Shown: one piece after another, positions 18,651-64,000 of the stretch
Layout: each line of letters opens with the position of its first letter
Numbering within the stretch: the stretch's first letter is position 1
NCBI GenBank assembly: GCA_029237825.1
Contig: JAQZBQ010000001.1
Coordinates: 1 to 64,000 of the forward strand
Length of the DNA stretch: 64,000 nucleotides
DNA from: Bacteroidota bacterium
GTDB taxonomy: Bacteria; Bacteroidota; Bacteroidia; B-17B0; Aurantibacillaceae
Direction of reading: 5' to 3'
Notes under the pieces: model-generated
Seen by the model: only the letters and a program-made list of their open reading frames with translations
Told to the model about the DNA's origin: nothing
Database searches by the model: none
Program-made: the position numbers and the translations under genes

Positions 18651-18865
18651 GATTTATCTAAGTTTATCCCACAAAACAAGTACTTACTCCTAACGCTTTG
18701 TCAGAAGATAAAACATGGATAAAACATAGATAATGCATAGTAAGTGCATGGAGAATTTATTTTGACACAATCGTTTGTCAAATTGTCACTTTCATGCAAT
18801 TGGTATAACCTTTGACAAAGAGACAGCGAAAAAATAAAAAGTCTTACCTTAAATACCATCTAATT

Positions 18866-20764
18866 ATGAGCACTGGCAAAATTAACGTACAAACCGAAAA
18901 CATTTTCCCGATTATTAAAAAGTTTCTTTACAGCGATAACGAAATCTTTTTACGCGAATTAGTAAGTAACGCTACAGATGCCACTCAAAAGCTGAAGGCT
19001 CTTAACTCCATGGGCGAAGCCAAAGGCGAACTGGGTGATCTCAAAATTGAAGTTAAAGTTGACAAGGATGCTAAAACCATTACCATTAAAGATAAAGGTA
19101 TTGGGATGACAGCGGAAGAAATTGAAAAATACATTACTCAGATTGCGTTTAGTGGCGCGGAAGAATTTGTAACCAAATACAAAGACAAAGTCGACAAGAA
19201 CGTAGTAATCGGGCACTTTGGTTTAGGATTCTATTCTGCATTTATGGTAGCACATAAAGTAGAAATTTTTTCTCTGTCGTATAAAGAAGACGCGAAAGCC
19301 GTTCGTTGGGAGTGTGACGGCAGCCCGGAATACCAGATTGAAGAGATTGACTCTAAAAAAGATCGTGGAACGGAAATCGTTCTGCACATTGCGGAAGACA
19401 GCCTTGAGTTTCTTGAGAAAAGTAAAATTGAGGGTTTATTAAAGAAGTACTGTAAATTCTTGCCGGTTGAAATTGTATTTGGAACCAAAAAAGACTGGAT
19501 TCCTTCAGGAGAAAAAGATGATAAAGGAAATGACAAGGAAAAAGAAATTGAAGTAGAAAACATCATCAACAATCCCGTTCCGGCCTGGGTTAAAAAACCG
19601 GCAGATTTAAAGGATGAAGATTACAAGGCATTTTACAGGGAATTGTACCCGATGCAATTTGAAGATCCCTTGTTTCATATCCATTTAAATGTAGATTATC
19701 CGTTCAACTTAACGGGTATCCTTTACTTCCCTAAATTATCTAACAAGTTTGAGGCACCGAAAGATCGCATCCAGTTATACAGCAACCAGGTGTTTGTGAC
19801 GGACAATGTCGAGAATATTGTTCCTGATTTTTTAACGATGCTGCGCGGTGTGATTGATAGTCCGGATATCCCGTTGAATGTAAGTAGAAGTTATTTACAG
19901 GCGGATCATAATGTGAAGAAAATTTCGGCACACATCACAAAAAAAGTGGCGGATAAACTGGAAGAAATTTTCAAAAAAGAGCGTCCGGATTTTGAAACCA
20001 AATGGGACGATGTGAAAATTTTTGTGCAGTACGGAATGATTAGTGATGAGAAATTCTATGAAAAAGCCGTAAAGTTTGCCCTCGTAAAAAACACGGAAAA
20101 GAAAGCCTTTACCCTAGAAGAATACGATGCATATGTGAAAGCAAACCAGACTGATAAAGATGGTAAAGTGGTTTTCTTGTATGCAACAAACACCGATGAA
20201 CAACACACGTACATCGACGCGGCAAAATCCCGTGGATATGATGTATTATTGATGGATTCGCCATTAGATGCGCATTTGATTAATCACCTGGAGAGTAAAT
20301 TAAATAACACGCAGTTTGTCCGCGTGGATGCTGACACCGTGGAGAAGCTGATAAAGAAAGACGATGGGCAAGTAAGTAAATTAAGTGAAGAAGAGCAAAA
20401 AACTTTAAAACCGGTGATTGAAGGTGTGGTTGCTAAAGAAAAATATTCAGTAGTGTTTGAAAGCCTGAGTGAAACCGATTCGCCTATGTTGATAACACGC
20501 CCTGAATTTATGCGTCGTATGAAAGACATGCAAGCCATGGGTGGCGGAGGCGGAATGAATTTCTATGGTTCTATGCCTGATATGTATAATTTGGTTGTAA
20601 ATGCCAACCATCCTTTAATTGGAAAAATACTGGTAGAGAAAGATGCTGAAAAACAGAAACAATTAGCGAAACAGGCTGCAGATTTAGCCTTGTTATCGCA
20701 GGGTTTATTAAAAGGCGAAGAGTTAACTAAGTTCGTGAAGCGCAGTGTGGAAATGATTAATTAA
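18866..20764 (+). CDS. htpG: molecular chaperone HtpG (Hsp90)
   Basis: A 632-aa cytosolic ATP-dependent chaperone. ATG 18866 (MSTGKINVQTENIFP) is preferred over 18812 because Hsp90 homology begins there. The N-terminal GHKL ATPase shows LRELVSNATDA, DKGIGMT, GHFGLGFYSAFMVA and GTEIVLHI. The middle domain has the conserved NVSRSYLQ catalytic Arg region, and the C-terminal dimerisation domain has a Gly/Met-rich segment (MGGGGGMNFYGSMPDMYNL). There is no eukaryotic MEEVD tail. The 215 bp between attR and the start holds the leader; no recognised heat-shock operator was found. Confidence 0.97.
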   Translation: MSTGKINVQTENIFPIIKKFLYSDNEIFLRELVSNATDATQKLKALNSMGEAKGELGDLKIEVKVDKDAKTITIKDKGIGMTAEEIEKYITQIAFSGAEEFVTKYKDKVDKNVVIGHFGLGFYSAFMVAHKVEIFSLSYKEDAKAVRWECDGSPEYQIEEIDSKKDRGTEIVLHIAEDSLEFLEKSKIEGLLKKYCKFLPVEIVFGTKKDWIPSGEKDDKGNDKEKEIEVENIINNPVPAWVKKPADLKDEDYKAFYRELYPMQFEDPLFHIHLNVDYPFNLTGILYFPKLSNKFEAPKDRIQLYSNQVFVTDNVENIVPDFLTMLRGVIDSPDIPLNVSRSYLQADHNVKKISAHITKKVADKLEEIFKKERPDFETKWDDVKIFVQYGMISDEKFYEKAVKFALVKNTEKKAFTLEEYDAYVKANQTDKDGKVVFLYATNTDEQHTYIDAAKSRGYDVLLMDSPLDAHLINHLESKLNNTQFVRVDADTVEKLIKKDDGQVSKLSEEEQKTLKPVIEGVVAKEKYSVVFESLSETDSPMLITRPEFMRRMKDMQAMGGGGGMNFYGSMPDMYNLVVNANHPLIGKILVEKDAEKQKQLAKQAADLALLSQGLLKGEELTKFVKRSVEMIN

Positions 20765-20827
20765 CTTTTAACTATTGCTTTATTTTTTTCATTGAGCGTA
20801 ATAAAAAACACATTTTAGAAAATAAAA

Positions 20828-20931
20828 CTGCGTTAAGGATTGTAGCGGAAATCCTTTTGGGACAATGCTCTGGCATGGTCCCAAAAGATTGAAGCGAAAA
20901 GCCTGACCCGACTTTAGGAGGGTAACGCCCT
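20828..20931 (+). repeat. structured intergenic repeat, copy A
   Basis: Order: CTGCGTTAAGGATTGTAGCGG, a hairpin with the perfect stem CTTTTGGGAC/GTCCCAAAAG, a second box AGATTGAAGCGAAAA, then GCCTGACCCG, a short hairpin and GGGTAACGCCC. The last 34 bp are identical to copy B. It lies downstream of htpG. See also copies at 21016, 21467 and 60809. Confidence 0.8.
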
Positions 20932-21015
20932 CCTGTATAAAATTTCACCTCTATAAAAAAATCAAACCAATACTATTAATTAAATTAAAACTAAAACATT
21001 GATATTTAAGTAAAA

Positions 21016-21114
21016 TGCGTTAACGATTGAAGTGAAAAAGCCCACAGCTACGAGGAACGAGTAGCGAGGACTTGTAACGGAAAGCCTGACCCGACTTTAG
21101 GAGGGTAACGCCCT
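21016..21114 (+). repeat. structured intergenic repeat, copy B
   Basis: TGCGTTAACGATTGAAGTG, a different internal hairpin (GCTAC...GTAGC), a CTTGTAACGGAAAGCC box, then GCCTGACCCG to ACGCCCT identical to copy A over 34 bp (21081-21114). It lies 30 bp before the DUF3467 gene. Confidence 0.8.
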
Positions 21115-21144
21115 AAAAAATACTTACTTTTAAGAAAAAATAAT

Positions 21145-21456
21145 ATGGAAAACCAAAATCCTGAAAATCAATTGAACATCGAACTTTCTGAAGAAATAGC
21201 AGAAGGCATATACTCCAACCTGGCCATCATCACTCACTCTCCGACGGAATTTGTGGTGGACTTTATCAAAGTGATGCCTGGCGTCCCAAAAGCGAAGGTA
21301 AAATCACGCATTGTATTAACGCCTCAACACGCCAAACGCTTAATGAAAGCTTTGGCCGATAATGTACAGCGTTTTGAACAAATGCATGGCAAAATAAAAG
21401 ACAGCGAAATGAATGCTTTGCCATTGAATTTCGGTGGACCAACAGCGCAGGCCTGA
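21145..21456 (+). CDS. DUF3467 domain-containing protein
   Basis: A 103-aa soluble protein. It has ELSEEIAEGIYSNLAIITHS, then FVVDFIKVMPG and KVKSRIVLTPQHAKRLMKAL, the conserved pattern of DUF3467, a small Bacteroidota family of unknown function. In related genomes it is often near rpoC; here it sits alone between repeat copies B and D. The ATG at 21145 is the only start that keeps the domain. Confidence 0.85.
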   Translation: MENQNPENQLNIELSEEIAEGIYSNLAIITHSPTEFVVDFIKVMPGVPKAKVKSRIVLTPQHAKRLMKALADNVQRFEQMHGKIKDSEMNALPLNFGGPTAQA

Positions 21457-21466
21457 TATTTATTTT

Positions 21467-21586
21467 GGGCGTGCCGGCGCACGATAAGATAAATTCCTTT
21501 TTGGGTTCATTGGCGCCGTCAGGCTTTCCATTCCAATCTTTTGCAAAGTGCAGGCAAAAGTATTTCCATTTCAATCCTTCACGCAG
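21467..21586 (-). repeat. structured intergenic repeat, copy D (inverted)
   Basis: Read on the minus strand: CTGCGTGAAGGATTGAAATGG, hairpin stem CTTTTG/CAAAAG, ATTGGAATGGAAAGCCTGAC, a GGCGC/GCGCC hairpin, and GGCACGCCC. Same architecture as copy A, more diverged. The rest of the gap to 21800 holds no gene. Confidence 0.7.
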
Positions 21587-21799
21587 TTATTATTCGATAC
21601 CGCATTAAAAGCCGTCGTTTCCACTTCCCTTAAATTTTTGGATTTCTCGCGATAGTAGAAGCGTTTTACTAAATCTAAATTTTTAGTTGTTTTGTGAATT
21701 TCCCTTTTTTTACATCTTTTTAATCAGGCACATTTATTGCGTGTTTTGGCTAGGAAATTCCACTTTTTGTTTTATCTTTGAATTTAAATTTTATTGCCC

Positions 21800-24418
21800 A
21801 TGAAAAAACTATACACCCTCTTATTTTTTACCCTTGTAGGTTTAAATAATATTTCTTCTGCAACGTTCTCAAGTGTGTCTTCGGGTACCTGGAGTGCCCC
21901 TGCTACATGGACAATTACATCAGGAACGGATGCGGATGGCATTCCGGATGCGGATGATGATGTGACGATTAATGCGGGGCACGGAATTTCATTGAGTTTA
22001 ACAACTAATTTTGTTAAAAATTTTAATAATAATGGTATTCTTATTGGTAACTCTAAAAGATTTGGAGTGAGTGGTAATTTTTCTAATAACGGCAGCGTAA
22101 ACAATATTATTTTGTACATTCTAAATACCTGTGTATTTACCTCTGCGAGTATATTTTCTGGCGCAATTGCCTGGTATATTAATAGTAATTTAGTTATTTC
22201 AGCGGGAACTACAATATCATCTCCAAATACAATGTCTGTAGGAGGGGCAGTTAATAACTTTGGCATCGTAGCGGTTTCCGGTGGAATTAATTTGAATGGC
22301 AGTTGGAATAATGCGACTAATTCTATTCTTACTGTAAATGGAAACATTGGTGGCACAGGAACTTTAATTGCTTCTAGCATAGGTAACACTGTTAATTATA
22401 TTGGAAGTTGTACCCAAGTTAAAGCCGTGACTTATTATAATTTGAGTTTAGGAGCAGCCGCTGCCGTTAAAGCAGCACAAGGAAATATTACTGTTTTAAA
22501 TAATTTTACTTTAGCTGCAGGTACAACTAATAACTTTAATCTAAGTAACTATAATTTAACAGTAGGTGGTAACTGGTTAAATAATGCTAACCGAACCATT
22601 ACCAACCAAGGAACAATTACTTTTAACGGATCCGGAACTCAAACCATAACACGTGCAAGTACTGAAATTTTCAATAATTTAGAAATTAATTCTACAGGCA
22701 CAGTTTCTTTAGGCAGGAACATAAACGTTACTCAGGACCTAACTATTAATAATGGATTATTAGATGTTTCAGCCAGTAATTTCACCATAGACATTAAAGG
22801 CAACTTTGTAAACAACAGTGCCATTAATTGCCGTCAGGGATTAGTCACTTTTACTGGTTCCAGCGCACAAACTATATCCGGCTCTCAAGGGATTAGCTTT
22901 AATGATTTAACCTCCTCAAATGCAGCCGGAGTGTCAGTTCTTTCAAATATTGCTGTGTTCTATCGATTAACAGTTGCCTCAGGAAGCTTTGGAACTTCCG
23001 GATCAGGTATCGTAACGATTCCTGCCTCCGGTCCAACCACTTACGGCCGGATAGCAACAGTGAATGGCACTTTATTTGGAACGGGCTGGGTACTGGAGAG
23101 CTATATTAATGGTCCTGCTCCAAAGGGATGGCAGTGGTTATCAAGCCCTACAAATAATAGCACATTAGCAGATTGGGATAATGATCCCCGTTTCTATATG
23201 AGTGGCGTTAATGGAAATGACGGGAATGCTTTAAATAGTACCGGTACTGGTTATTTTTATTCTGTTAGAACCTATAATGAAGTCAGTGGTGCCTACACAA
23301 ATATAACCTCAACAAGTACGGCCTTAGCTCTGGGTAAAGGTTTCCATATATGGATGTCAGATAATACAACAGGCCTTACAGCCCCTTTAGTTTATAACAG
23401 CGTTGGGACACCAAATTTTGGGACTATAAATTTTCCCGTTACTGCCGGTGGAGCAGGTAACGGATATAATTTAGTGGGCAATCCTTATGCCTGTCCAATT
23501 ACGTATAGCGCGGTGGTTGCTGCTTCCGGGAATTTATATTCTGATTTCATCGTCCTACAGGAAGATAATAGCTATGCCACTAACCCTAACGGAGGCATTA
23601 TTTCTCCGAATCAGGGCTTTATGTGTGTGGCATCTGCCGGTGGAAATATCACCTTTACAGAGGCCTGCAAAAATATTAATGGAAACCCAAACATTTTGAA
23701 AACCGCCCCTGAAGAGAACGCTATCACCTTCAGTGTTTATAATAATGTGAATGGTATGGGGGGTAGAACATATATTAATTTCAAAGATGGCCCTACTGAT
23801 AATTTTGAAAATGGCACTGATCTTTCTTTTTTAGCTTCACCCTCAGTAGAAGCCGATAACATTTACACAAAAAGCCTGGACAATGTTGCACTATTACGAA
23901 ACGTGTTGCCAAACACTGGTGAAGAGAAACATATTCCATTAATTGTTAAAACCAGCGTTTTCGGATCACATTTTATTTCCGCCAAAGGTCTTTCCAATTT
24001 AACGTTATATAATTCTGTTTGGTTGGAAGACCTGGGCACAGGAAAAAAAGTGGATTTATTAAAAAATCAGGAATATGAATTTAACGCCGAAGAAATCGGT
24101 AAAGATTACGAGTTTGTTATTCATTTCTCTAATTCGAAAAAATCAACAGACAATACTGGTATTACAAATACAAAGTTATTGAATGAAAATACGGCGGTGT
24201 ACAACACTCCATCAAGTGTTGTTGTAAAATTCAGTATGGACGAATCAACTCCGGTGACCATTTCTGTATTTAATTTATCTGGACAAAAAGTAATTGAAAA
24301 TATTAATGCAAATGTTACTGATGATCGGATAGCCTTACCTCTTCAAAAAGAAAATGGTTTATATTTACTCATCATTCAATCGGATAAGGAACAGATTACC
24401 AGGAAAATCATTTATTAA
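21800..24418 (+). CDS. T9SS type A sorting domain-containing surface protein
   Basis: ATG 21800 (MKKLYTLLFFTLVGLNNISSA) begins a signal peptide; a TTG at 21794 is less likely. The mature protein is about 850 aa. The N-terminal part has a GTWSAPATWT...DDVTINAGH segment typical of Bacteroidota surface repeats that form a beta-helix, followed by many Asn/Gly/Thr-rich turns (about 70-400). The middle has GWQWLSSPTNNSTLADW and NLVGNPYACPITYS, patterns common in large T9SS cargo. The C-terminal ~75 aa (VVVKFSMDES...ISVFNLSGQKVIE...RKIIY) is the sorting domain. Predicted to be exported by T9SS and surface-exposed; adhesion is a guess. Confidence 0.85.
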   Translation: MKKLYTLLFFTLVGLNNISSATFSSVSSGTWSAPATWTITSGTDADGIPDADDDVTINAGHGISLSLTTNFVKNFNNNGILIGNSKRFGVSGNFSNNGSVNNIILYILNTCVFTSASIFSGAIAWYINSNLVISAGTTISSPNTMSVGGAVNNFGIVAVSGGINLNGSWNNATNSILTVNGNIGGTGTLIASSIGNTVNYIGSCTQVKAVTYYNLSLGAAAAVKAAQGNITVLNNFTLAAGTTNNFNLSNYNLTVGGNWLNNANRTITNQGTITFNGSGTQTITRASTEIFNNLEINSTGTVSLGRNINVTQDLTINNGLLDVSASNFTIDIKGNFVNNSAINCRQGLVTFTGSSAQTISGSQGISFNDLTSSNAAGVSVLSNIAVFYRLTVASGSFGTSGSGIVTIPASGPTTYGRIATVNGTLFGTGWVLESYINGPAPKGWQWLSSPTNNSTLADWDNDPRFYMSGVNGNDGNALNSTGTGYFYSVRTYNEVSGAYTNITSTSTALALGKGFHIWMSDNTTGLTAPLVYNSVGTPNFGTINFPVTAGGAGNGYNLVGNPYACPITYSAVVAASGNLYSDFIVLQEDNSYATNPNGGIISPNQGFMCVASAGGNITFTEACKNINGNPNILKTAPEENAITFSVYNNVNGMGGRTYINFKDGPTDNFENGTDLSFLASPSVEADNIYTKSLDNVALLRNVLPNTGEEKHIPLIVKTSVFGSHFISAKGLSNLTLYNSVWLEDLGTGKKVDLLKNQEYEFNAEEIGKDYEFVIHFSNSKKSTDNTGITNTKLLNENTAVYNTPSSVVVKFSMDESTPVTISVFNLSGQKVIENINANVTDDRIALPLQKENGLYLLIIQSDKEQITRKIIY

Positions 24419-59011: not shown

Positions 59012-59486
59012 TGCTAAATACATAACGTTTTTAAGCATTTTCGCTATCCTTGGTTTTAGCCGGGAATTTTTCTTTGTAAATATCAACAGCCAGCTATATA
59101 GCCTCTATTACAACCACACCAAGTACCATTTACCCACTAGTTTGCAATTTCTTGCTGGATTGGATTATGCGACACTTTATTTTTTAAAATTCCCCTTTAC
59201 ACTGATTTGTGTTTTAGTATACTTTATCACCAGCTATCTGTCTGTAAAATATATAAACCACGATAAAAAAATCACAATCTGGGTCGTTTATATTTACGCA
59301 TTATTATTAGTTTTGTCGGGAATGGCAATGGCTTACAATTATTTTTTCAAGCACCAACTCAGCGGTGACGAATACACTTTTAGCCGATGGTTGATGGGCA
59401 TTGCGCAATCGCCCTTAGTTGCTTTTTTTATCATTGCCTCCGGGAAACTTTACCATACATTTCAAAAAGACCAAAAACATCGTTAA
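59001..59486 (+). CDS. exosortase-associated membrane protein
   Basis: A 161-aa protein with about four TM helices ([52 protein letters not shown]) and the N-terminal motif [14 protein letters not shown] seen in proteins paired with XrtX-type exosortases. It overlaps the exosortase gene and probably forms a complex with it. glyA begins one base after its stop. Confidence 0.72.
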
Positions 59487-59487
59487 T

Positions 59488-60762
59488 ATGAAAAAAGATA
59501 CTGCTATTTTTAAATTGATCAAGGAAGAAAAAGACCGTCAAACACGCGGTATCGAATTAATAGCCAGTGAAAACTACGTGAGCGACCAGGTGATGAAAGC
59601 CATGGGAAGCGTACTCACAAACAAATATGCAGAAGGTCTCCCCGCTAAACGTTATTACGGTGGCTGCGAGGTCGTGGATAAAGTGGAACAACTCGCAATT
59701 GACCGCGCCAAAGAATTATTCGGTGCTGCCTGGGTAAATGTTCAGCCTCATTCCGGTGCGCAGGCGAACGCGGCAGTAATGCTGGCCTGCTTAAAACCGG
59801 GTGATACCATTTTAGGGTTCGATTTGTCTCACGGTGGACATTTAACACACGGTTCCCCTGTTAACTTTTCCGGAAAGCTTTACCGCGCTACGTTTTATGG
59901 TGTTGATGAAAAAACAGGGCGTGTGAACTATGATAAAGTTGAAGAGACTGCTAAAAAAGAAAAACCAAAAATGATCATTTGCGGTGCTTCTGCATATTCC
60001 CGTGATTGGGATTACGAACGCTTGCGGAAAATAGCGGATAGCGTGAATGCCATTCTTTTAGCCGATATTTCGCATCCATCCGGGTTAATTGCCAAAGGAA
60101 TTTTAAACGATCCGCTGCCTCATTGCCACATTGTAACCACCACCACTCACAAAACCTTACGTGGACCGCGCGGTGGCATGATCATGATGGGTAAAGATTT
60201 TGAAAACCCGATGGGAGAAAAAACTCCAAAAGGTGAATTGAAAATGATGAGTGCCTGTTTAGACATGGGCGTATTCCCGGGAACTCAGGGGGGGCCGTTA
60301 GAGCACGTGATCGCAGCAAAAGCCGTGGCTTATGGAGAATGCTTAAGCGATGAGTACATGCACTACTGCGTACAGGTCATTAAAAATGCTCAAACCATGG
60401 CAAAAGCATTGGTTGAAAAAGGCTATAAAATTATCTCCGGAGGAACCGACAACCATTGTATGCTGATCGATCTTCGCAGCAAAGGTTTAACCGGTAAAGA
60501 GGCTGAAAAAGCGTTAGGTGAAGCAGATATAACCGTGAATAAAAACATGGTGCCATTTGATGATAAGTCGCCATTTGTTACTTCCGGTATTCGTATTGGT
60601 TCACCGGCCATTACAAGCCGCGGTTTAAAAGAAAAAGATTGCCTGAAAGTTGTTGAGTTCATCGATGCTGCATTAAAGAATAAAGACAATCCGAAGGAAC
60701 TTGCAAAATTAAAGGCTAAGATCAATACGATGATGAGCAAATATCCTTTGTTTAAGGATTAA
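59488..60762 (+). CDS. glyA: serine hydroxymethyltransferase
   Basis: A 424-aa PLP enzyme that interconverts serine and glycine and feeds one-carbon units to tetrahydrofolate. ATG 59488 ([20 protein letters not shown]) is chosen over 59419, which lies in the upstream gene. Motifs: [39 protein letters not shown], and [13 protein letters not shown] with the Schiff-base Lys. Its start abuts the exosortase-associated gene (1 bp), so it may be co-transcribed with that module, though it probably also has other promoters. Confidence 0.97.
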
Positions 60763-60808: not shown

Positions 60809-60876
60809 GGGGCGTTTCCCTGCGGGTCAGGCTGAGCTTCGCTCGGTGCCTTCGTCAAAACTTCAATCCTTAACGC
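60809..60876 (-). repeat. structured intergenic repeat, copy C (short form)
   Basis: Read on the minus strand: GCGTTAAGGATTGAAG, a stem-loop with CACCGAGCGAAGCTC, then GCCTGACCCG and GGGAAACGCCCC. The second ATTG box of copy A is missing. The rest of the 281-bp gap holds no gene; at 60937-60962 there is a second short repeat-like stretch (CCATTCGACCAGCTCAGTG). Confidence 0.75.
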
Positions 60877-60992
60877 GGGTTTTTATTCTTCTCTAATTAC
60901 ACAATCAAATTCAAGTCTTGCCAAGTTCAGCACTCACCACGCCATTCGACCAGCTCAGTGTGCCAAATATTTCTTTATACCATGATGAAAAA

Positions 60993-61043: not shown

Positions 61044-64000
61044 TTAATATCCAAATACATCCTTCAAGGTTAAATACTTAACAGTCCCATATTTTTCCAA
61101 TGTTTTTATATCCAGCAAATCTTTTTTACCCAATACCAAAATCGAGGCCGGTTTATTTTTAATCTTCTCATCCTGGAATTTTTTCACATCATCGTAAGTC
61201 ATAGTAGCAACTCTGGCGTAAATGTCTTTACGGATATCTGTTTTCAACCCAAATTTTTCCGCATTGATGTAATCAAACAAAATATCTGCTTTATTGATTC
61301 TTTCCGTCCGGATGTTTTGTAAAATCGCTTCCTTGGCAGCACCAAACGAAATATCAGATTTCGGAACATTGTTCAACAGACTCATCATCCCTGCCATGGC
61401 TTCAGGCAATTTATCGGCTTGTGAACCGATATAGGAAAAATTATAAAAAGGCTGTTTAGGATCTTTCGGACTTCTGTACGTCGAGTAACAGGAGTAAGCT
61501 AATGCTTTTGATTCACGCAGATCCTGAAAAACCACCGAACTCATTCCTCCACCAAAATATTCATTATACATATTCACGATTGGAGCATTCTGTGCATCAT
61601 ACTTTTCACCTTCCGTTAATATCACAATCTCTGCCTGCTTCATGTCGTAATCCACCACATAAACCGTATTGTTAAAAGTCTGCGGAACAAATTTCGTTTC
61701 TTCCGGACACGGTTTTAAACCGGTTGCCGGAATCTTATGTAAGTTATTTAAAGATTCTTTCACGTCACCCACGAGCTTTGGTCCGTAGTATAAAATGCGA
61801 TGCTGGAAACTTGTTAATGATTTGATTAGTTCTGCAATGTCCGAAGGTTTCAATTTATTCAGAGCTTCTTCTGAAAGCACATTTGTTGCAGGATTCAATG
61901 CACCGTATTTTGCATAATTCACCATCATCTTCTGAAGAATTGTGCCCTTCTGTTGTTTGGCATCACTCCGCTTTTTCAGAATGTCAGATACCAGGTTCTT
62001 CAACGTGCCCTCATCAATTTTAGGATCTGCCAGTAATTCTTCGAACAACTGCGTCGCTTTTTCAAAATTTTCACTTAGCCCTGTTAAACTCACCCAGGTT
62101 TGATTATCGGAATTAAACACATTAAACGCACATCCCAGTTTATAGAATTCTTGCTGTACTTCCGCAGGCGTCATTTTACTTGTTCCCAGGTAAGAAATAT
62201 AATCAATTGCAACCGGCAGCAACTTATCGTTGTTTGATCCCATGTCAAACGCGTAATACAAATCAAATAACTGGTTCTCCGTATTCTGGCTGTACAACAA
62301 TGGAATATTTCCATTCAACGTTGACTTCATCACATCTTTCTCATAGTCGATGAATTTAGGCTGCATTTCGGCCGTTTTGCTGTTCAGGATATTTTTTACA
62401 AAAGGCGACTGGTCGTCACGGTTCACCTCAACCGGTGTGATCTGTGGCTTTTCCACTTTCTGAATATTTTTATCTTCACCTACCCGCTTATAAACCACCA
62501 CATAATTCTGGTCGTTGTAATGTGTCTTAGCAAAATCAATCACTTCCTGCTTAGTGATTTTCGAAAGACGTTCAACCATATTCACAGCCTGTTGCCATTT
62601 GGTATCGTATACAAATGCTTCCACGAAAGCCATGGCACGTGACTGATTGTTTTCCAGTTCCTTTGTTTTCTGTAATTTCAAATCTGTAATCACTGCACTC
62701 ATTAACCAGTCCGGGAATTCTCCTTTTTTAAGCAATTCTAATTGATCCAGTAATAATTTTTCTACTTCTTCCAAAGTTTGTCCCTCTTTAGGTTCAGCAA
62801 ATAAGATGTGTGTAGAATAATCTTTTAACACGTAAGCAAACCCACCACTGTTCAATACTTTTTGTTGTTGATTTAAATTGAGATCCAATAAACCGGCGCG
62901 TCCATTTACCAGCAATAAATTAATCAGACTAATCATATCCGCGTCTTTCGTACCTGTTCCATCAAAACGCCAGGCCATTGCCAGGTTCGCGGCATCCGGC
63001 CCAATGATCTCTTTGGCAATTTTTTGAGTGATCGGCGCTTCTTTCTCAAATTTATAAGGGGTAACAGGTTTTGATGGCATAGATCCAAAATATTTTTGAA
63101 TCAGTTTTATGGTTTCATCCGGGTCGAAATCTCCACTTAAGCAAATGGCCATGTTGTTTGGAACATAATTCGCGTTAAAATATTTCATGATTTCTTTCAT
63201 GGAAGGATTCTTCAGGTGATCAATGGTTCCGATAGTAGTTTGCGTTCCGTAAGTATGGTTGGTAAAAAGTCCGGCAAAAACCGCTTCCCATAATTTACTG
63301 TTGTCATTATCTAATCCCCTGTTCTTCTCCTCATAAACTGCCTCTAACTCTGTATGAAATAATCTCAATACCGGTTTGCGGTAACGCTCAGCCTCAACTT
63401 TTAACCAATTTTCTATTTGATTAGAAGGAATATCATTCACATATACCGTTTGATCAAAGGAAGTAAACGCATTGGTTCCCTGACCTCCAATTCCCGCCAT
63501 CATTTTATCATATTCATTGGCAATCGCGTATTTCGCAGCTACACCTGAAATACTGTCGATCTGATGGTATATTTTTTTTCGCTGAGCATCATCTTTTGTT
63601 TGACGATACGTTTCGTATAGGTTTTCAATCTTGGCTATTTCAACCGATTCCTTCGCAAAATCTTTTGTTCCAAATTTATCGGTCCCTTTAAAAACCATGT
63701 GCTCAAGATAATGCGCTAAGCCAGTTGCGGTTGCAGGATCATTCTTACTACCGGCTTTTACGGCTACATAAGTTTGAACACGTGGTGCATTTTTATAGAC
63801 ACTCATGTACACTTTCAAGCCGTTTTTCAACGTATAAATCCGTGCTTTAAACGGATCATTTAAAGCGTATTCAAAATTAAGAGACGGAACTTTTGAGCCA
63901 TCCTTTAATGTGCTTTTAGGTGGTACGGGCTTAGAGTTTGCCGGTTTGGTTTGGGCAGATACATTAAAAACTGTAAAAGCCAGAGCCAAAGGTAAAAGAG
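61044..64000 (-). CDS. M16 family zinc metallopeptidase, 5' end outside the window
   Basis: At least 981 aa. The frame stays open to the window edge and reads ...LLPLALAFTVFNVSAQ, the end of a signal peptide, so the true start lies beyond 64000; the TTG at 63989 is not a real start. Two M16 repeats: the first has the inverted zinc motif HYLEH (about 93-97, HxxEH) with the distal Glu in ELEAVYEEKNRGLDND; the second, about 530-960, is inactive, as usual. Predicted periplasmic peptidase (insulinase/PqqL type) of about 110 kDa. Confidence 0.92.
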   Translation of the reverse strand, partial: LLPLALAFTVFNVSAQTKPANSKPVPPKSTLKDGSKVPSLNFEYALNDPFKARIYTLKNGLKVYMSVYKNAPRVQTYVAVKAGSKNDPATATGLAHYLEHMVFKGTDKFGTKDFAKESVEIAKIENLYETYRQTKDDAQRKKIYHQIDSISGVAAKYAIANEYDKMMAGIGGQGTNAFTSFDQTVYVNDIPSNQIENWLKVEAERYRKPVLRLFHTELEAVYEEKNRGLDNDNSKLWEAVFAGLFTNHTYGTQTTIGTIDHLKNPSMKEIMKYFNANYVPNNMAICLSGDFDPDETIKLIQKYFGSMPSKPVTPYKFEKEAPITQKIAKEIIGPDAANLAMAWRFDGTGTKDADMISLINLLLVNGRAGLLDLNLNQQQKVLNSGGFAYVLKDYSTHILFAEPKEGQTLEEVEKLLLDQLELLKKGEFPDWLMSAVITDLKLQKTKELENNQSRAMAFVEAFVYDTKWQQAVNMVERLSKITKQEVIDFAKTHYNDQNYVVVYKRVGEDKNIQKVEKPQITPVEVNRDDQSPFVKNILNSKTAEMQPKFIDYEKDVMKSTLNGNIPLLYSQNTENQLFDLYYAFDMGSNNDKLLPVAIDYISYLGTSKMTPAEVQQEFYKLGCAFNVFNSDNQTWVSLTGLSENFEKATQLFEELLADPKIDEGTLKNLVSDILKKRSDAKQQKGTILQKMMVNYAKYGALNPATNVLSEEALNKLKPSDIAELIKSLTSFQHRILYYGPKLVGDVKESLNNLHKIPATGLKPCPEETKFVPQTFNNTVYVVDYDMKQAEIVILTEGEKYDAQNAPIVNMYNEYFGGGMSSVVFQDLRESKALAYSCYSTYRSPKDPKQPFYNFSYIGSQADKLPEAMAGMMSLLNNVPKSDISFGAAKEAILQNIRTERINKADILFDYINAEKFGLKTDIRKDIYARVATMTYDDVKKFQDEKIKNKPASILVLGKKDLLDIKTLEKYGTVKYLTLKDVFGY

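Follow-up and report, generated by a model that had tools for sequence, protein, structure and literature searches.

A long form of the Flavo-1 element in a Bacteroidota genome looks more like a structured DNA repeat than an RNA gene

The structured repeat found in the window (the whole stretch of 64,000 nucleotides analysed here, from a Bacteroidota bacterium of the Aurantibacillaceae) belongs to Flavo-1, Rfam family RF01705, and occurs here in a form longer than the Rfam model. With its patchy numbers, its occurrence in either orientation and the exchange of its hairpin tip as a whole, Flavo-1 resembles a DNA repeat more closely than an RNA gene. Our preferred reading, put forward tentatively, is that it belongs with the structured DNA repeats of the REP/BIME-like kind, that its named strand folds and that a trans-acting factor enables it to spread. 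Two of the four copies in the window, A and D, pass the RF01705 cut-off of 42 bits and are thereby members of Flavo-1, while B and C are absent from the RF01705 listing at that cut-off. The initial annotation, made from the letters of the window alone, had proposed a comparison with Rfam and guessed at Flavo-1, and the guess was correct. It had also named, among the grounds for refutation, identity with an element characterised before, and here the answer is divided: the family is catalogued, but no function for it is known in the literature found. In 2010 Flavo-1 was listed as probably an RNA and probably not cis-regulatory, from Bacteroidetes (PMC2864571). The literature found states no function; the sole functional remark, in a report on F. 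psychrophilum (PMC9723704), concerns overlap with transcription, the Flavo-1 hits lying sense and antisense to transcribed regions alike and many of them outside such regions.

The coordinates of the four copies and their neighbours are collected in Table 1. The covariance model R2 was built from own-genome copies, with A, B and D used in its training and C not. A search with R2 recovered all four copies where the initial annotation had placed them, with ends that agree within 2 bases, and gave no other match in the window at E <= 0.01. The perfect 34-bp stretch said to be shared by A and B is present; it lies at the 3′ end of B and, by the repeat finder, inside a repeat pair of 43 nt and 93% identity. 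A family of four copies was an underestimate, since the long-form model has 68 matches in the own genome, where RF01705 itself has 52 matches at E <= 1e-3, 26 of them above the cut-off. The shared plan described for the four copies holds in full for A, B and D. Copy C keeps P1, P2 and P4 by sequence, but its interior (half of box 1, P3 and box 2) has been replaced, and the replacement sequence is also found within another copy of the same genome, C23:2355-2491. Copies A and B occupy the gap between htpG and the DUF3467 gene, D follows the DUF3467 gene, and C stands in the convergent gap between glyA and the M16 peptidase gene. Close to copy C, at 60941-60965 of the window, a separate REP-like sequence (CATTCGACCAGCTCAGTGTGCCAAA) was noticed by eye.

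Table 1. Flavo-1 copies in the window and the genes next to them (bit scores from Rfam RF01705 and from the own-genome model R2)
Feature	Position	Strand	Evidence and remarks
Copy A, complete long-form Flavo-1	20830-20930	+	RF01705 62.3 bits; R2 87.9 bits (training-set member); hairpin P3 flanked by box 1 and box 2
Copy A, P1	20830-20834 / 20924-20928		
Copy A, P2	20836-20838 / 20902-20904		
Copy A, hairpin P4	20906-20923		
Copy B, complete	21017-21113	+	R2 70.5 bits (training-set member); P3 type GCTAC/GTAGC
Copy D, complete	21467-21584	-	RF01705 46.5 bits; R2 73.2 bits (training-set member); P1 GCGTG/CACGC; P4 long
Copy C, hollowed	60810-60876	-	R2 28.3 bits, E 6e-4, outside training set
htpG (Hsp90)	18812-20764	+	Pfam PF00183; upstream of A and B; ORF start as listed mechanically
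DUF3467 gene	21145-21456	+	Pfam PF11950; between B and D
glyA (serine hydroxymethyltransferase)	59419-60762	+	Pfam PF00464; runs towards copy C (convergent); ORF start taken from the mechanical list
M16 peptidase gene	61044-63989	-	Pfam PF05193, PF00675; other convergent neighbour of copy C

The element is about 75-130 nt long and has two conserved boxes. In the long form the order is P1 (GCGTN/NACGC), an A, P2 (GGG/CCC and variants), box 1 (GATNGNAGYGRAAATC), P3, box 2 (GATTGNARYGRANAGC), P2′, hairpin P4, P1′, CC and an A-rich flank. The 76 positions of the RF01705 model include neither P1 nor P4, and the long form with its closing helix P1 and hairpin P4 is new here. The sequence of P1 is variable, with at least 10 versions and no fixed core triplet. 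The short form has AGC/GCT as P1 and no P4, and genomes G355 and G382 carry long and short forms together. Taken from the sequences and the Rfam structure line, the facing boxes would make two 3x3 internal loops, GNA against GGA, in which G.A pairs could form. A Flavo-1-like copy on the minus strand of L180 (1855-1996), antisense to, and before, a start codon that by eye reads as miaA-like, has a long conserved insert in P3, as have its orthologues in G567 and G257; copies of this type may be a different structured element.

Folding of single sequences gave an uneven picture. In the minimum-free-energy RNA structure of copy A the helices P1 to P4 and the middle box pair are all formed, and none of 200 shuffles folds as well (z -3.7), whereas the single RNA folds of B, C and D are no better than shuffles (z -1.3, -0.5 and -0.2) and that of C lacks P1. 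Treated as DNA, copy A folds better than shuffles whichever strand is taken (z -5.2 and -3.3), D does so weakly (z -1.6), and B and C do not. Because the single folds of B, C and D are unremarkable, the case for structure rests on comparison. Over 32 own-genome copies the covariation score was 0.323 against 0.159 when shuffled and at most 0.138 when slid, exceeding 500 of 500 shuffles; the score is partly circular, as the structure was drawn from the same hand-chosen copies (alignment A2: 30 of 50 trimmed, with corrected ends and copy B). In that set one of the five measures, the count of further pair types, was not above shuffles, 251 of 500 of which reached it. Nineteen short-form copies (alignment A1, which includes copies of G370, from another family) scored 0.421 against 0.147 when shuffled, again with a pair-type count not above shuffles (377 of 500).

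A better check on covariation than the 32-copy set is provided by 94 matches aligned by fitting to R2. They were drawn from records of Bacteroidota and, in a few cases, from Spirochaetia-labelled bins (80 of 118 stretches, among the matches listed) and were retrieved with a 25-base pattern round box 1 that fixes the fifth P1 base and the 5′ arm of P2. In this set 97.6% of cells are paired, and covariation was 0.182 against 0.083 when shuffled and at most 0.069 when slid. P1 alone has Watson-Crick pairs in 426 of 470 cells, compared with at most 405 in 2000 shuffles; its arms stand 70-110 nt apart and yet covary. P1 and P4 both covary in the 32-copy set and in the 94-match set, and P2 in the 32-copy and 19-copy sets, its 5′ arm being fixed by the pattern in the 94-match set. 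Some metagenome bins with a Spirochaetia or Spirochaetales label (L235, L245, L251, L285 and others) contain long-form matches; these may reflect contamination or spread beyond Bacteroidota.

These comparisons bear on most of what the initial annotation had proposed. A structured repeat family with conserved pairing is what the 32-copy covariation shows, and the suggested covariance model and scan of this genome and other Bacteroidota yielded both covariation and many further copies. The argument that stems which differ in sequence and still pair point to selection on structure stands for P1, P2, the box pairs and P4. It carries less weight for P3, which can be replaced as a whole hairpin, so that pairing in P3 alone is weak evidence of stepwise compensation. 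The low divergence of the core at one fixed locus described below also speaks for selection on the Flavo-1 fold, the contrast at a second locus being weaker.

The kinds of base pair bear on which strand folds, and in what state. G.U accounts for 32 of 2095 cells (1.5%) in the 94-match set, against 18 of 180 cells (10%) in tRNA acceptor and T stems, a rough comparison since the yardstick is 15 tRNAs with 15 of the 180 cells unpaired. The corresponding counts are 8 of 661 cells in the short form and 39 of 1381 (2.8%) in the own-genome copies, and the Fisher test against the tRNA stems gives 1e-8 for the 94-match set and 1e-7 for the short form. Within the 94-match set G.U exceeds A.C by 32 to 9 with one slipping column excluded (A.C is 14 with that column), and the named strand therefore appears to be the folding strand there. 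No such excess is present in the short form (8 against 9 of 661) or in the own-genome copies (39 against 43 of 1381, counted in 27 of the 31 rows of alignment A3 and in part a product of alignment slips). Single-stranded DNA and RNA are both compatible with the pairing, and the low rate of G.U favours DNA. Outside the element, the 94 upstream flanks have no conserved block of bases (highest value 0.42 bits), and the 3′ flank is A-rich (AAAT.A).

Copy number is patchy between relatives. Eight congeners have at least 48, 51, 8, 2, 2, 2, 1 and 0 copies, family members range from 0 to 70 (lower bounds), and at least 57 of 395 genomes of the phylum have a match under strict filters, in keeping with the initial annotation's mention of similar boxes in other Bacteroidota. 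At the DUF3467 locus none of 20 relatives' loci has a long-form match, and htpG is in the locus in 12 of the 20. In the own genome 48 of 69 copies (the 68 and one added from the R2 search of the window) have another copy within 2 kb. Where two neighbours are separated by 150 bp or less, they are arranged head-to-head in 9 cases, in tandem in 9 and tail-to-tail in none, and five of the head-to-head spacers measure 46-47 bp. A palindromic spacer was sought in 8 of the 9 head-to-head pairs and dropped, at best 41 of 1000 shuffles being as good. Other repeats are intermixed with the Flavo-1 copies of this genome; one of them (ATACTTTTTGCAGCCAAAAAGTAT...GATTTTGTGATAGGC) follows several copies, at L031:12460-12520 and on other own-genome contigs.

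The position of copies relative to gene ends, which the initial annotation had wished to see compared, could be tallied by crude ORF calls. The 49 own-genome copies with both neighbours lie in 20 convergent, 24 co-directional and 5 divergent gaps; overlapping ORFs under 500 nt were ignored in this tally, copies sharing one gap were counted singly, and 14 of 63 copies were excluded for want of a neighbour. In its co-directional gaps 13 copies run along and 11 against the genes. Elsewhere, the short-form copies that were tallied, 27 out of 29 (some of them from G370, which belongs to a different family, and with two or more mutually orthologous pairs), are distributed over 3 convergent, 22 co-directional (12 along, 10 against) and 2 divergent gaps, and six long-form copies over 1 convergent, 3 co-directional (3 along, 0 against) and 2 divergent gaps. 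Pooled over the own genome and the short form, orientation in co-directional gaps is even (25 to 21). As regards replication, nothing was evident by eye in the strand of the few hits in two one-contig genomes, position 1 being assumed to lie near the origin.

Some copies have stayed in one place for a long time. In the genomes of genus g27, by inference a Flavobacterium-type genus, one copy lies in the gap between kdpC and a gene of the porin-2 family, and 28 of the 30 loci examined (the best 30, from 232 of 249 genomes matched, with G355 itself included) still carry it; in the other two, L203 and L223, the interior of the element has been replaced by another small hairpin. Over the 28 copies the two ends of the core differ by 4.3% and 6.2% at model positions, or by 2.7% and 4.7% in 27 of the 30 loci when located by an expression that fixes most core letters. 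In the surroundings, divergence is 12% over the upstream 22 nt, 18% over the downstream 45 nt, 31% across the rest of the gap and 30% in the third codon positions of the gene that follows. Even the "free" box base N is identical in 25 of the 28 copies, and this constancy together with the retention points to a function for the host at this particular site more than to a selfish relic. The divergence of P3, 36%, comes from its exchange as a unit: four cassettes are found again, identical in every letter, in separate parts of the tree. On a quick tree with 6 of 27 inner branches open, we counted 10 changes of P3 among 21 loci (species), 11 among 24 with one-base variants merged, and 16 among 30 with each kind as its own state. 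In about 1 Mb of g27-type genomes, some loci of which overlap, two of the four cassettes were seen elsewhere, 2 times and 1 time, always inside Flavo-1. Other palindromic repeats of the kdpC/porin gap (CTAACAGGTTTT..., TCCCGAAGCTTCGGGA; L202-L231) were likewise seen by eye to vary by whole hairpins.

A second locus has its copy antisense to the genes on either side; there, 9 of 20 loci retain the element, and L109 and L112 show remnants. All nine copies give a weak contrast (core 19-20% against flanks 28-33%), and the six most alike give 9-12% against 25-28%. P2 reads CCTG/CAGG, CCCG/CGGG or CCAG/CTGG at this locus and is paired in every copy.

Set beside known systems, Flavo-1 shares several traits with REP, BIME and REPIN sequences. 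It has 68 matches in one genome that are extragenic by crude ORF calls, it forms hairpins and inverted pairs at a recurrent spacing, its number varies between relatives, and other repeats accompany it. REP sequences are described as palindromes of 20-40 bp with a GTAG tag (PMC3733652), whereas Flavo-1 is a longer, two-box element in which the base before AG varies and the tag is not fixed. Relative to RF01705, what is found here has the same P2, the same double box with internal loops, the same P3 and the same host phylum, and differs in the addition of P1 and P4. In integron attC sites, the shape of a folded single strand is conserved more than its sequence. Flavo-1 resembles attC sites in that respect and differs from them in the variability of P1 and the absence of a fixed core triplet.

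Several candidate origins were rejected. Mobilisation by a RAYT transposase (PF01797) has against it that the own genome has 0 matches at E <= 1e-3, that two of the five genomes rich in copies have no PF01797 (G452 also has 0) while G434, with seven, has 1 copy, and that over 41 family genomes it does not track copy number. A MITE of a cut-and-paste transposon would have fixed termini, whereas these vary and covary; by eye there was no target duplication in the flanks of the listed head-to-head pairs. In an insertion search, 15 copies were compared; alignment to relatives was possible for 9 of them, which make up 4 distinct loci, and gave no clean empty site or target duplication. One short-form copy gave no blastn match in phages and plasmids, and an exact short-form pattern none in viral contigs.

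Rfam's label of a small RNA would mean a trans-acting RNA family in which every copy is transcribed, along the named strand, from a separate promoter. Three observations agree with it: copy A folded as RNA shows the comparative helices, G.U exceeds A.C in the 94-match set, and the core is constrained at the kdpC/porin locus. We consider it unlikely, however, given a G.U rate far below that of tRNA stems, the lack of a conserved block upstream, a copy number of 0-70 across family members and, in the F. psychrophilum report, the many hits outside transcribed regions (PMC9723704). An element of mRNAs in operon gaps and gene tails, serving stability, processing or a 5′ leader and working in either orientation because both strands fold, is likewise doubtful. 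It would account for the many short-form copies that fill short gaps between co-directional genes, the copies placed 10-50 nt upstream of a start codon, the retention at the kdpC/porin gap, the preponderance of convergent over divergent gaps in the own genome (20 to 5) and the folding of both DNA strands of copy A. It does not account for boxes that are conserved on one strand whatever the orientation of the copy, and in the 94-match set, though not in the others, the strands are not equivalent. Hairpins at gene tails might also suggest a bidirectional intrinsic terminator, but this is highly improbable: 20700-21850 holds 0 terminator-like sites (a GC stem with a T run) on either strand, the 3′ flank is A-rich, and elsewhere many copies lie in operon-like gaps.

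The covariation could also be mostly a by-product of DNA mutation, through correction of hairpins and exchange of whole hairpins or copies, the copies themselves being without function. P3 is indeed swapped as near-perfect cassettes, the pairs are nearly all Watson-Crick, and there are chimaeric copies with mismatched P1 arms (for example C19:51-145). Against this, P1 covaries over a separation of 70-110 nt, and at one locus the core differs by 4-6% where third codon positions differ by 30%, and we regard such an explanation as quite improbable. An effect exerted through DNA would most easily account for a named strand that is able to fold, for the conservation of its boxes and for copies that face either way beside genes. 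On our preferred reading of Flavo-1 as a REP/BIME-like repeat, the element would act at the DNA level as an interspersed repeat, its named strand folding when single-stranded so that a putative trans-acting factor recognises the fold and lets the element spread. P3 would need to be only a near-perfect hairpin and could pass as a unit from one copy to another, a possible route being template switching at the hairpin base. Once placed, some copies would be kept for long under constraint. Long retention at one site indicates that some copies matter to the host, and a selfish origin with later host use is the most likely compromise. We give little credence to a further version, in which Flavo-1 is structured mobile DNA independent of RAYT, with the folded named strand as substrate, the head-to-head pair with its 46-47 bp spacer as the moving unit and a dedicated machinery exchanging P3 cassettes at fixed sites; if it were true, many of the "sRNA" annotations made with Rfam would be DNA elements.

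For an element that is neutral in orientation, patchy in number and prone to swap its hairpin, the small-RNA label of Flavo-1 may mislead. P1 and P4 provide a fuller structure for better detection of the family, and the kdpC/porin gap offers a single locus where the function of Flavo-1 could be tested.
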